From contig CAJWHT010000007.1 in NCBI GenBank assembly GCA_913041495.1, forward strand, positions 1-61,479: 61,479 bases of DNA, read 5' to 3'. Below the pieces are notes generated by a model. The model ran no database searches and was not told where the DNA came from. It saw nothing but the letters and a program-made list of their open reading frames with translations. Each line of letters begins with the position of its first letter. Positions within the stretch are counted from its first letter, which is position 1. Source of the stretch: an uncultured Desulfobacteraceae bacterium. Lineage in GTDB: Bacteria > Desulfobacterota > Desulfobacteria > Desulfobacterales > Desulfobacteraceae. Below, in pieces: positions 33,046 through 36,666 of this stretch. The position numbers were made by a program, and so were the translations under genes.

Positions 33046-33618
33046 TCAGCTTATGGGCACGCCCCATTTTTTTACGAACTTGTCCGTGTCAGATACGGCC
33101 ACGTGGAGATCCTGCTCACTTTCCGCCGGCATGATGCTCAGGTTCATGTGGAAGTTCAGGGGATTGCGGACTTCCATGGAGGGCTGGGTATCGATGGTCA
33201 GGACCAGGTCGCCGCCGGAGGTTTCCACCAGGCCGGAAAGATCACTTTCGTTGGCGTGGAAGCATTTGTAGTATTTCTTGTTGGCATTGTCGTACTTGTA
33301 CACGTTGAACTGAAAGGTCACTTCGGTGCTGTCCAGGGTGTTCAGTGTCAATCCGGCCAGGTTGGTCTGGTTGGTGTTGGATACCTTAGCGTCGAAGGTG
33401 ATGCCGTGGGCATAGCCCCCTTCCCAGAATACGCCGGACATGACGCCCACCACACTGACCTTGTCACCGGAGATATCGGTGGGATCGGTTACCCCGATGT
33501 CCGCGGACAATTCAGTGTCGCCTATTTTCAAAGAGGTGATGTGTCCTACGATGTCCTGTACGTCTTTTACGAAGTTGAATCCCTGTTCTACACTGCAATC
33601 ATAACTTAATGCGGCCAT
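33046..33618 (-). CDS. Unknown 190-residue beta-rich protein under sigma-54 control
   Basis: No family was recognised. The protein has no signal peptide and no membrane segment. It is rich in Asp, Thr and Ser and in alternating beta strands (EVTFQFNVYKYDNANKKYYK, GGDLVLTIDTQP, FHMNLSIMPAES), suggesting a soluble beta-sandwich or a structural protein. There are two cysteines (C8 and one near residue 121). A strong ribosome site (AAAGGAGAAAGACA) precedes the ATG, and a perfect sigma-54 promoter lies about 70 bases upstream. The gene is monocistronic between the MCP gene and cooA. High expression under a particular condition is likely; function is unknown. Confidence 0.72.
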   Translation of the reverse strand: MAALSYDCSVEQGFNFVKDVQDIVGHITSLKIGDTELSADIGVTDPTDISGDKVSVVGVMSGVFWEGGYAHGITFDAKVSNTNQTNLAGLTLNTLDSTEVTFQFNVYKYDNANKKYYKCFHANESDLSGLVETSGGDLVLTIDTQPSMEVRNPLNFHMNLSIMPAESEQDLHVAVSDTDKFVKKWGVPIS

Positions 33619-33702: not shown

Positions 33703-33869
33703 TGTTGTTTTTGTTTTAATATTACAAGTGGTTGCGAGTTGTTTGGCAATAATGTTGTCACGGAGTGGCGATTCATTTCTGAAAATAGCCGTGCGTCTGG
33801 CAACTTTGTTTGGTTTTTTGTGGGGGTCACCGTGATTCCCGGGGCAATCGGCTTATGATATACTAGGGA

Positions 33870-33912
33870 TGTCGCCCAGCCGACAGTATTTTTCAAAATG
33901 CCCGGGTATAAT
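33870..33912 (+). promoter_or_regulatory. CooA-type operator and promoter of cooA
   Basis: A perfect dyad TGTCG-CCCAGC-CGACA (33870-33885) is followed by a consensus -10 box TATAAT (33907-33912). The dyad centre is 29.5 bp before the -10 box, which places it near -41.5, the class II activator position. This form agrees with the TGTCR-N6-YGACA type of site known for CooA. It predicts positive autoregulation. Confidence 0.75.
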
Positions 33913-33946
33913 GAAGAATATGCCGGAAAACCAGGAGGCCTCCACC

Positions 33947-34609
33947 ATGAAGTTTTTAAAAGAGAATCTGCTTGACCATCTGCAGCGCCCCGAATTTGCC
34001 GAGCTACACGCATCCTTGATAAAGCGGTCCTATAAAAAAGGGGCCTTTGTCTGCCAGCCGGACGTCGGGGAAAACCGGGTGTTCATCATTGCCAGAGGAC
34101 GGGTCCGGGTGTACCTGGGGTACGAGGACAAGGAGTTCAGCCTGGGCATACTCACCAAAGGCGATATCTATTCCACCCACACCGGCACCTTTGTCCAGGC
34201 CCTTGAAGACATCGAGATATTGATGGCAGACATTCATACCTTCCGGCAGAAACTGGTGGGAGACCCGGAAGTGACCAAAGCCATGGTCCGGGTGCTCGGA
34301 GACGTTCTCAAAACCTCTTTTTCCATCATCGACGGGCTTGCGTTCAAGGATGTCAATGCCCGCCTGGCGGCGCTTCTGGTGAACGCCGGCCGACGGCACG
34401 GCAAATCCTCTGATGACGGCAGTATTTTCGTTCAGCTTGATCTGTCCGTGGAGCAGATCGCCCGGCTGGTGGGGGCCACCCGCCAGACCGTATCCACCCT
34501 GTTAAACGACCTTTCCCGGGCCGGACTGATCAGCAGGCCGGACCGGGCCACCTTTCTTATTCCGGATCTTGCCGCCCTGGAAGCCGTGGGCGGTATCGGC
34601 AGCCACTGA
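33947..34609 (+). CDS. cooA: CO-sensing transcriptional activator CooA
   Basis: A 220-residue Crp/Fnr-family haem sensor that binds CO and activates CO dehydrogenase genes. The sequence GRVRVYLGYEDKEFSLGIL and GDIYSTHTGTFVQALED closely follows CooA, especially the Carboxydothermus type. H78 corresponds to the haem ligand His77 of Rhodospirillum CooA; Cys75 of that protein is Ser76 here. DIHTFRQKL and the recognition helix LVGATRQTVSTLLNDL complete the match. ATG 33947 is preferred: AGGAGG lies eight bases upstream and the predicted transcript starts near 33919. An alternative ATG at 33920 would give Pro2 but almost no leader. It sits directly upstream of cooS. Confidence 0.9.
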   Translation: MKFLKENLLDHLQRPEFAELHASLIKRSYKKGAFVCQPDVGENRVFIIARGRVRVYLGYEDKEFSLGILTKGDIYSTHTGTFVQALEDIEILMADIHTFRQKLVGDPEVTKAMVRVLGDVLKTSFSIIDGLAFKDVNARLAALLVNAGRRHGKSSDDGSIFVQLDLSVEQIARLVGATRQTVSTLLNDLSRAGLISRPDRATFLIPDLAALEAVGGIGSH

Positions 34610-34624
34610 TTTTTCTTTTCCCTT

Positions 34625-34667
34625 TGTCGCCTGGCCGACAGACGCGATCCTCCCTGTCCGCTATTTT
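34625..34667 (+). promoter_or_regulatory. CooA-type operator and promoter of cooS
   Basis: A second perfect dyad TGTCG-CCTGGC-CGACA (34625-34640) is followed by TATTTT (34662-34667). The centre-to--10 distance is again 29.5 bp, identical to the cooA promoter. The poorer -10 suggests stronger dependence on activator. Confidence 0.75.
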
Positions 34668-34684
34668 TTTGTTGAGAAAATGAT

Positions 34685-34755: not shown

Positions 34756-36666
34756 ATGGCCAATCAACCCAAGCCGGCAGAGGGATTAAGCATCTGGAAA
34801 GATGCCAGAAAAATGATAGACAAGGCACGAAAAGACGGGGTGGAAACGGTCTGGGACCGTTTTGAACAGCAGACCCCGGCCTGCAAATTCTGCGAGCTGG
34901 GGCTGACCTGCAAAAATTGCAACATGGGGCCGTGCAGAATCAGCCCCAAGAAAAACGGGAAAATGCAGCGGGGCGTCTGCGGGGCGGATGGGGATGTCAT
35001 TGTGGCCCGGAACTTCGGCCGGTTTGTTGCCGGGGGCTCTGCCGGCCATTCCGATCACGGCAGGGACCTTATCGAAGTGCTGGAAGCCATTGTTGAAGGA
35101 GATGCCCCGGAATATAAAATTAAGGGTGTGGAAAAACTGCGCAGGATTGCCCGGGAAACAGGCATTAAAGTTGACGGCCGGTCTGTCAAGGAGATTGCCA
35201 AAGATCTGGCAGACATCTGTTTTGCGGATTTCGGCAGCCGGAAAAAGGCGCTCGCCTTTGTGAGCCGGGTGCCTGAAAAACGGCAGGAGATCTGGGAAAA
35301 ATTCAACGTGGTCCCCCGGGGAATTGACCGGGAAATCGCCGAAATGATGCACCGCACCCACATGGGCTGTGACAATGATGCGGTAAGCACCCTGCTGCAT
35401 GCGGCAAGAACAGCGCTTGCCGACGGTTGGGGCGGATCGATGATCGGCACCGAATTATCGGATATTGTTTTCGGGGTACCCGCACCATCAAAATCCCGGG
35501 TGAATCTCGGGGTGATCCGAGAAGACCAGGTTAATATCCTGGTGCACGGCCACAATCCCGTGGTGTCGGAAATGGTGCTGGCCGCCGCCGGAGCGCCGGA
35601 TATGATTGCCCGCGCCAGGTCCGCAGGGGCTTCCGGCATAAATATCGGCGGGCTGTGCTGCACCGGGAACGAGCTTCTCAGCCGCCAGGGGATTCCCATG
35701 GCAGGGAACCATCTGATGACCGAACTTGCCATTGTCACAGGAGCGGTCGAAGCCGTGGTGGTGGATTACCAGTGCATCATGCCGAGCATGGTCCAGGCGG
35801 CGGCCTGTTACCATACCCGGTTTATCACCACCTCGGACAAGGCGCGGTTCACCGGTGCCGACCATATCTCCTTTAGCCCTAAAACTGCTGCAGCCCAGGC
35901 CCGGGAGATTGTGGGCATGGCCATCGACGCCTTTGCAGGAAGGGATGAAGGCCGTGTGGAGATTCCGGATGAACCCGTGGATATCGTCTGCGGGTTTTCC
36001 AACGAGGCGCTGCTTGAGATGCTGGGGGGCAGCCTCGATCCTTTGCTGGATGCGGTAAAGTCCGGCGCCATCCGCGGATTTGCCGCCATTGTGGGCTGCA
36101 ACAATCCCAAGTTTCAGCACGATTCCCAGAATGTGGGGCTGGCAAAGGAATTGATCAAACGGGATATCCTGGTCCTGGCCACAGGCTGTGTGACTACGGC
36201 GGCAGGTAAAGCCGGTCTCCTGGTGCCTGAGGGGGCAAAGATGGCGGGGGAAGGCCTTGCCAAGGTCTGTGAATCCCTGAATATACCGCCGGTGCTCCAC
36301 TTCGGCTCCTGTGTGGACAACTCCCGGGTGATTCATCTGTGCGGAATGATTGCGGATGCGTTAGGGACGGATATCTCCGATCTGCCGGTGTGGGGATCTT
36401 CCCCGGAATGGTACTCGGAGAAAGCCGTGGCCATCGGTTTGTACTGTGTTGCCTCGGGCATTCCCGTGCATATCGGGACACCGCCGCATATTACAGGATC
36501 AAAGCTGGTGACGGACCTGGCCTTGAACGGGCTGGAGGAGGTATTCGGCGCCTCCTTTCTGGTGGAGCCGGATTTTGAAAAAGCGGCTGCGGCCATGGAT
36601 GCCCGGATATCTGCCAAAAGGCTGACGCTGGGGCTGACCGATCCGGCCGGTGAGGGAATAAATTAA
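34756..36666 (+). CDS. cooS: Ni-Fe-S carbon monoxide dehydrogenase catalytic subunit
   Basis: CooS oxidises CO to CO2 at a NiFe4S4 C-cluster. The 636-residue protein has N-terminal cluster cysteines C43, C46, C52, C55, C60 and C75. C43-x2-C46 with Thr51 replaces the CX7C D-cluster motif of the Carboxydothermus enzyme and matches the CX2C form with a 2Fe-2S D-cluster known from Desulfovibrio vulgaris. C-cluster ligands are visible in VHGHNPVVSEM (His), NIGGLCCTGNELL, VVDYQCIMPS, AAIVGCNNPK, LATGCVTTAAGK and HFGSCVDNSR. The gene has AAGGAGG four bases before ATG. No cooF (ferredoxin) or cooC (Ni insertion) gene adjoins it, and a terminator follows directly. The enzyme probably supports CO detoxification or CO-driven reduction. 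Confidence 0.96.
   Translation: MANQPKPAEGLSIWKDARKMIDKARKDGVETVWDRFEQQTPACKFCELGLTCKNCNMGPCRISPKKNGKMQRGVCGADGDVIVARNFGRFVAGGSAGHSDHGRDLIEVLEAIVEGDAPEYKIKGVEKLRRIARETGIKVDGRSVKEIAKDLADICFADFGSRKKALAFVSRVPEKRQEIWEKFNVVPRGIDREIAEMMHRTHMGCDNDAVSTLLHAARTALADGWGGSMIGTELSDIVFGVPAPSKSRVNLGVIREDQVNILVHGHNPVVSEMVLAAAGAPDMIARARSAGASGINIGGLCCTGNELLSRQGIPMAGNHLMTELAIVTGAVEAVVVDYQCIMPSMVQAAACYHTRFITTSDKARFTGADHISFSPKTAAAQAREIVGMAIDAFAGRDEGRVEIPDEPVDIVCGFSNEALLEMLGGSLDPLLDAVKSGAIRGFAAIVGCNNPKFQHDSQNVGLAKELIKRDILVLATGCVTTAAGKAGLLVPEGAKMAGEGLAKVCESLNIPPVLHFGSCVDNSRVIHLCGMIADALGTDISDLPVWGSSPEWYSEKAVAIGLYCVASGIPVHIGTPPHITGSKLVTDLALNGLEEVFGASFLVEPDFEKAAAAMDARISAKRLTLGLTDPAGEGIN

Follow-up and report, generated by a model that had tools for sequence, protein, structure and literature searches.

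The window, a stretch of 61,479 nucleotides from an uncultured Desulfobacteraceae bacterium, carries cooA, a gene for a CRP/FNR-type regulator, followed on the same strand by cooS, a gene for a Ni-dependent CO dehydrogenase (CODH). The features of the region are collected in Table 1. The start of cooA was set at this position because all 20 relatives first fetched have their start codon at the same place (GTG in one of them) and show no protein conservation upstream of it. Among solved structures the regulator is closest to the CooA proteins of C. hydrogenoformans (2fmy, E 4e-50) and R. rubrum (1ft9, 8e-41); the best full-length match not named CooA is 7ets (1.9e-14). His78, within GDIYSTHTG, aligns with His77 of R. 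rubrum CooA, the proximal heme ligand, and Cys75 of the R. rubrum protein is replaced by Ser76. The N-terminus reads MKF and is without Pro2, the N-terminal distal heme ligand in R. rubrum CooA; in other CooAs the amine of the N-terminus probably serves as distal ligand. The recognition helix keeps R-Q-T-x-S (ATRQTVSTLLN in the window, against SSRQTTSTALN). By its sequence, then, the regulator is a CooA homologue.

Table 1. Features of the cooA-cooS region of the window, and CooS-C genes at other loci
Feature	Position	Strand	Basis
Extended -10-like element TGATATACT	33856-33864	+	Candidate CooA-independent basal promoter; speculative
CooA operator A	33870-33885	.	Exact TGTCG-N6-CGACA upstream of cooA; -49 to -34 of inferred start
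-10 box TATAAT, cooA promoter	33907-33912	+	Sequence; spacing 29.5 bp
cooA ribosome-binding site AGGAGG	33933-33938	+	Sequence reading
cooA, 220 aa, CRP/FNR-type regulator	33947-34609	+	Start set by N-terminus conservation in relatives
CooA operator S	34625-34640	.	Exact TGTCG-N6-CGACA between cooA and cooS
-10 box TATTTT, cooS promoter	34662-34667	+	Sequence; spacing common in relatives
cooS, 636 aa, Ni-CODH, D. vulgaris type	34756-36666	+	CXXC-X5-C D-cluster motif
CooS-C genes	L037:5691-6332, L038:4263-4934, L039:5685-6281, L041:5667-6185	-	CooS homology

CooS matches the profile TIGR01702 with 697.5 bits, and its best solved match is 6b6v, the D. vulgaris enzyme. The D-cluster motif is present as C43-X2-C46-X5-C52, and Cys302, 340, 448, 478 and 519 are identical in the alignment, leaving the C-cluster cysteines complete. 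According to the sections of the literature consulted, the C-X2-C-X5-C motif marks CODH structural group E-2 (PMC6344411). Judged by this motif and the best match, CooS is a Ni-CODH of group E-2 and of D. vulgaris type. The open reading frame that follows cooS lies on the opposite strand and is not cooC. Divergent from cooA lies a gene for a 190-aa protein (33046-33618, minus strand) with no Pfam or NCBIfam match.

The initial annotation had described perfect dyads before both genes at the same distance from a -10 box. Both dyads are indeed exact, and a script run on the sequence confirmed that the distance from the dyad centre to the first base of the -10 hexamer is 29.5 bp at each promoter. 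If the hexamer is numbered -12 to -7, each operator has its centre at -41.5 and covers -49 to -34. Transcription of cooA would then start at about 33919, giving a leader of 28 nt, and that of cooS at about 34674, giving a leader of 82 nt. The TATTTT box of cooS is a weak -10 when taken alone because it is part of a run of T (34664-34670), and it is plausible that the better -10 of cooA provides a basal level of the sensor. No pair of sigma-70 hexamers was found between 33600 and 34800, which is weak evidence since shuffles lead one to expect only 0.7. We considered whether operator A could serve the divergent gene and rejected this, as there is no TAnnnT at 29.5 bp on that side (the sequence there is ATTGCC). 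Reading frames from a mechanical listing overlap both dyads (the cooA frame extended up to an ATG at 33869, and others of 135, 98 and 111 aa) and are taken as chance frames.

The window contains two exact dyads where 0.04 are expected, and none of 100 shuffles reaches two. When up to two mismatches are allowed, the matches (13) fall below expectation (19.5), so the excess is confined to exact dyads. There are three exact dyads in the 5.77 Mb genome, against about five expected from base frequencies (ten fixed letters; our own estimate). There is therefore no genome-wide enrichment; the remarkable point is the placing of two of the three on either side of cooA. The third (C77:12226, L003), the one locus inspected for gene context out of 15 from the dyad scan, falls within a 543-aa reading frame. 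The frequency of TAnnnT in the window is 0.0072 per position, so that the probability of two occurrences at a preset spacing is about 5e-5, and that of the second matching the first, with the first taken as given, about 0.7%. A genome scan for further dyads with a -10 box, as suggested in the initial annotation, returned no third site: the composite TGTCR-N6-YGACA-N21-TAnnnT occurs without mismatch only at the cooA and cooS promoters. One-mismatch dyads were rejected as extra regulon members, being scattered over 35 places in the genome with no third exact composite. The CooA regulon in this genome probably consists of these two promoters.

In 40 genomes (that of the window included) the number of exact composites ranges from 0 to 3, and some of the genomes that have one lack a cooA match. 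The composite alone is therefore no proof of a site, and its position decides. One composite, TGTCAATCCTTTGACA-N21-TATTTT with small variations, is present in nine genomes of the window's genus, including one with no cooA match (G1055). It was rejected as a promoter: in the example inspected (L092:1501-1543) it lies within a response-regulator-like reading frame adjoining flgB/flgC-like genes (the names are our reading of the translations), and it is taken as conserved coding sequence.

We compared the cooS promoters of relatives, using 20 loci first fetched (5 + 15) and eleven further matches added later, of which L066 matches L042 exactly at the site, while L075 covers the same place as L068 and was left out of the counts. 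A TGTCR-N6-YGACA dyad lies 114-132 bp before the cooS start in all 16 first-fetched relatives that have cooS beside cooA. For the spacing we used a set of 20 de-duplicated cooS promoters, with the window excluded and L066, L070 and L071 (near L069) and L068_S (near L068_A2) removed. TAnnnT stands exactly 29.5 bp from the dyad centre in 16 of these 20, several of which come from one genus and so are not fully independent; any other offset is found in at most two, and in 5000 shuffles the maximum was six, none being as high as 16. Without dropping rows the count is 18/24. To the other side of the dyad, TAnnnT at 29.5 bp occurs in 1/25 cooS rows (the window and the duplicate L066 included), 0/6 cooA rows and 0/11 cooS-C rows. 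The exceptions among the 20 are L033 and L034 (28.5 bp), L025 (30.5 bp) and L069, which has TACCAG at 29.5 bp; TACCAG or TACCAC is found at this distance throughout L069-L071. Two loci with no cooS match in the flank, L067 (box at 30.5 bp) and L074 (no such box), stand outside both cooS counts, and neither has TAnnnT at 29.5 bp.

The geometry rests far more firmly on this conservation than on the twin spacing. As far as promoter sequences can tell, the comparison gives good support to the class II activation of cooS that had been proposed from the matching spacings, with CooA as the activator. The comparison also provides a rule for predicting CooA targets beside cooA, namely a dyad, 21 bp and TAnnnT. 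With this rule a cooS that CooA probably controls can be told apart from the genome's other cooS copies. There are two further full-length cooS genes in the window's genome (L017 and L018), and no TGTCR-N6-YGACA with fewer than two mismatches was found in their flanks (about 1.4 kb upstream of each); in the flanks examined, only the copy adjoining cooA, of three, has the site. At one related locus (L043:5001-5663) the cooA frame stops after 92 codons and similarity runs on to the end. The neighbouring cooS can be aligned over 628 residues and still has its operator.

The site upstream of cooA is more variable. Among the 20 relatives first fetched, a dyad of consensus form is found upstream of cooA in three (L030, L032 and L033) and a degenerate one in a fourth (L031); none was found in the other 16. 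The four dyads lie 130-143 bp upstream of the start and outside any reading frame of at least 80 aa. Two of these loci belong to cultured bacteria, Desulfopila aestuarii DSM 18488 (L032) and Desulfosediminicola flagellatus (L033), which also have the site before cooS. TAnnnT follows at 29.5 bp in L032, at 28.5 bp in L033 and only at 36.5 bp in L030 and L031. It is also found at 29.5 bp in L068, where the order is cooA1-site-cooA2-site-cooS (L068:1501-3123) and both TGTCR-N6-YGACA sites have the box at this distance; judged by sequence, this locus, from a different family, shows the twin layout independently. In a tree of CooA proteins the window, L030-L033, the owners of CooS-C (described below) and others without the site form one well-supported group of 15 rows (100/99); the labels for owners of an upstream site did not include L068. 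Gain and loss of the site are indistinguishable because the group is poorly resolved inside.

In the sections of published studies consulted, cooA is induced by CO in D. vulgaris and C. pertinax and unchanged by CO in Calderihabitans maritimus (PMC7306483), and cooA of Citrobacter Y19 shows no CO response (PMC5371261). Positive autoregulation of cooA had been claimed for the window on the same grounds as activation of cooS. Operator A and its -10 box do stand in the activating position, but the site varies among relatives and only one of the four is at 29.5 bp. Autoregulation of cooA thus appears likely, although less conserved than the control of cooS, and its positive sign is plausible. Close relatives with and without the upstream site allow autoregulation of the sensor to be compared.

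Taken together, the data make it likely that both dyads are operators of the heme CO sensor CooA, acting in class II activation of cooS and cooA. CO-bound CooA would sit near -41.5 on each operator, overlapping the -35 region, and would recruit RNA polymerase to a -10 box that has no good -35 partner. In this way it would switch on cooS and also, with an identical geometry, its own gene, and more of the sensor would be made under CO. The CO dependence and the positive sign of the cooA loop are what we infer from this arrangement, as are the transcription starts given above.

A promoter switch at cooA is an unlikely alternative. Here the extended -10-like element TGATATACT, which the initial annotation does not mention, would form a basal promoter that feeds the sensor without CO, and CO-bound CooA would block it and open the class II promoter; the net effect of CO on cooA could then be small or even negative. 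The element differs from TGnTATAAT at one position, and transcription from it would begin at about 33871, within the dyad of operator A; the unchanged cooA of C. maritimus shows that self-induction is not required of a sensor (PMC7306483). A single such match is weak evidence, however, because the window holds 39 one-mismatch matches to TGnTATAAT (22 expected). None of the 20 relatives has an element like TGATATACT in a similar position; two of them have a one-mismatch extended -10 elsewhere, at -25 (L032) and -60 (L037) from the cooA start, and the search for sigma-70 pairs described above also yielded no partner for a basal promoter.

We think it improbable that operator A is the site of a repressor, or of autorepression by CooA, with cooS alone being activated. 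CRP-type regulators can both activate and repress; operator A nevertheless lies upstream of the -10 box at the spacing conserved for cooS and covers neither the -10 nor the start. A role of the dyads in RNA, as hairpins or weak terminators instead of operators, is very improbable. A terminator scan does flag dyad A, followed by GTATTTTTCA, as terminator-like, but the stem has only five pairs, the three terminator-like hits compare with 2.1 expected, and the operator S region does not fold clearly better than shuffled sequence (z -0.5 and -0.8); terminators are rejected on these grounds. In addition, the T tract after the dyad is absent from several relatives that keep the dyad and the -10 box (for example L026-L029 and L042). 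A stable RNA structure in the cooS leader was also looked for and nothing was seen (z -0.45). Finally, that the dyads and -10 boxes arose by chance is scarcely credible: the three exact and 35 scattered one-mismatch dyads in the genome, and the composites in genomes without a CooA match, would allow it, but location and conservation contradict it, and for cooS conservation already does so.

With the window's own genome counted, CooA was found (E <= 1e-30) in 6/242 genomes of the order and 11/395 of the phylum, and (E <= 1e-40) in 9/19 genomes of the genus. The exact composite is present in all nine cooA-bearing genomes of the genus. In two of them, the window's genome and G1049, it precedes cooS, the site of G1049 being the one also seen in L031; in the remaining seven it precedes a gene derived from cooS. 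The promoter rule has brought to light a CODH-derived gene that follows a CooA-type promoter. This gene, which we call CooS-C, has about 170-227 codons, is homologous to the C-terminal third of CooS and is convergent with cooA in 11 loci. The hosts belong to four phyla: two are Spirochaetota and one each belongs to Verrucomicrobiota and Kiritimatiellota (together L037, L038, L039 and L041, with L038 from Cerasicoccus maritimus NBRC 105382), and seven (L106-L112) are in the window's genus. A CooA-type dyad precedes the CooS-C gene in 11/11 loci, with TAnnnT at 29.5 bp in ten (L039 is without the box).

In a Pfam search of three CooS-C proteins, Prismane scored above the cut-off in two and weakly below it in one. 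An AlphaFold2 model of the L038 protein, made from a four-row alignment (mean pLDDT 74 for the best model and 73, 52, 43 and 34 for the others), best matches CODH chains (6b6y, E 9.5e-12, TM 0.67 on the query, rmsd 5.6). At the C-cluster positions 448, 478 and 519, Cys is found in 3 of 33 cells across the 11 proteins (two in L038 and one in L106). All 11 share a tail, H-x-[KQ]-R-L-x3-W-[SC]-D-R, which is absent from the two CooS aligned. CooS-C is probably a shortened, non-enzymatic version of CODH.

In the four hosts of other phyla, full-length CooS was searched for by tblastn; none was found in their draft genomes, where the CooS query gave no match longer than 211 residues. The CooA proteins of these four hosts group together (98/99) in the CooA tree described above, which was made without the seven members of the genus. 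Searches with CooA around three of the hosts, covering the surrounding order or class, found the CooA/CooS-C pair in the host alone (1/132, 1/46 and 1/240), and the pair is sporadic in this sense. Searches of a partial library found no literature on a stand-alone CooS-C protein.

On balance we lean towards a view of the CooA class II promoter as a mobile module, with CooS-C having replaced the target enzyme in some lineages, so that CO sensing would drive a CODH-derived non-enzyme beside or instead of CO oxidation. If this is true, such a protein would be driven by CO sensing in seven members of the window's genus and in hosts from three other phyla, Spirochaetota, Verrucomicrobiota and Kiritimatiellota. 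What it would do there is a guess, one option being a CO-responsive regulatory or protective partner.

The proposed promoters can be compared with several known systems. The class II promoters of E. coli CRP have the operator at -41.5 and do not need a good -35; the operator position is the same as in the window, and the effector is cAMP rather than CO bound to heme as in CooA. R. rubrum CooA, a heme CO sensor, activates PcooF and PcooM in a class II-type manner. The kind of sensor, the type of activation and the sites are the same as proposed here; the operators are centred near -43.5 and -38.5, compared with -41.5 in the window. The consensus quoted for CooA sites is TGTC(A/G)-N6-(C/T)GACA (PMC5371261).

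For D. vulgaris and D. desulfuricans the CooA regulon has been described with a 16-bp palindrome, consensus TGTCGGCNNGCCGACA, upstream of cooSC, and the table rows consulted give sites before cooSC and cooMKLXUHXF and none before cooA (PMC545781). The window resembles these species, as far as the rows go, in the 16-bp palindrome upstream of cooS and in the type of CODH. It differs from them in that cooA has a dyad of its own and the frame after cooS is on the opposite strand and not cooC. In Calderihabitans maritimus KKC1, cooA is directly upstream of cooS6, TGTC-N8-GACA precedes cooS6 and cooS6 rises with CO; the sites named in the part of the study consulted are before cooS2-ech1 and cooS6 only (PMC7306483). 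The order cooA-cooS with a site before cooS is shared with the window; cooA of that strain, as noted above, is unchanged by CO. In summary, the proposed CooA-driven promoters of cooS and cooA are of a known kind, and the CooS-C branch may be new.
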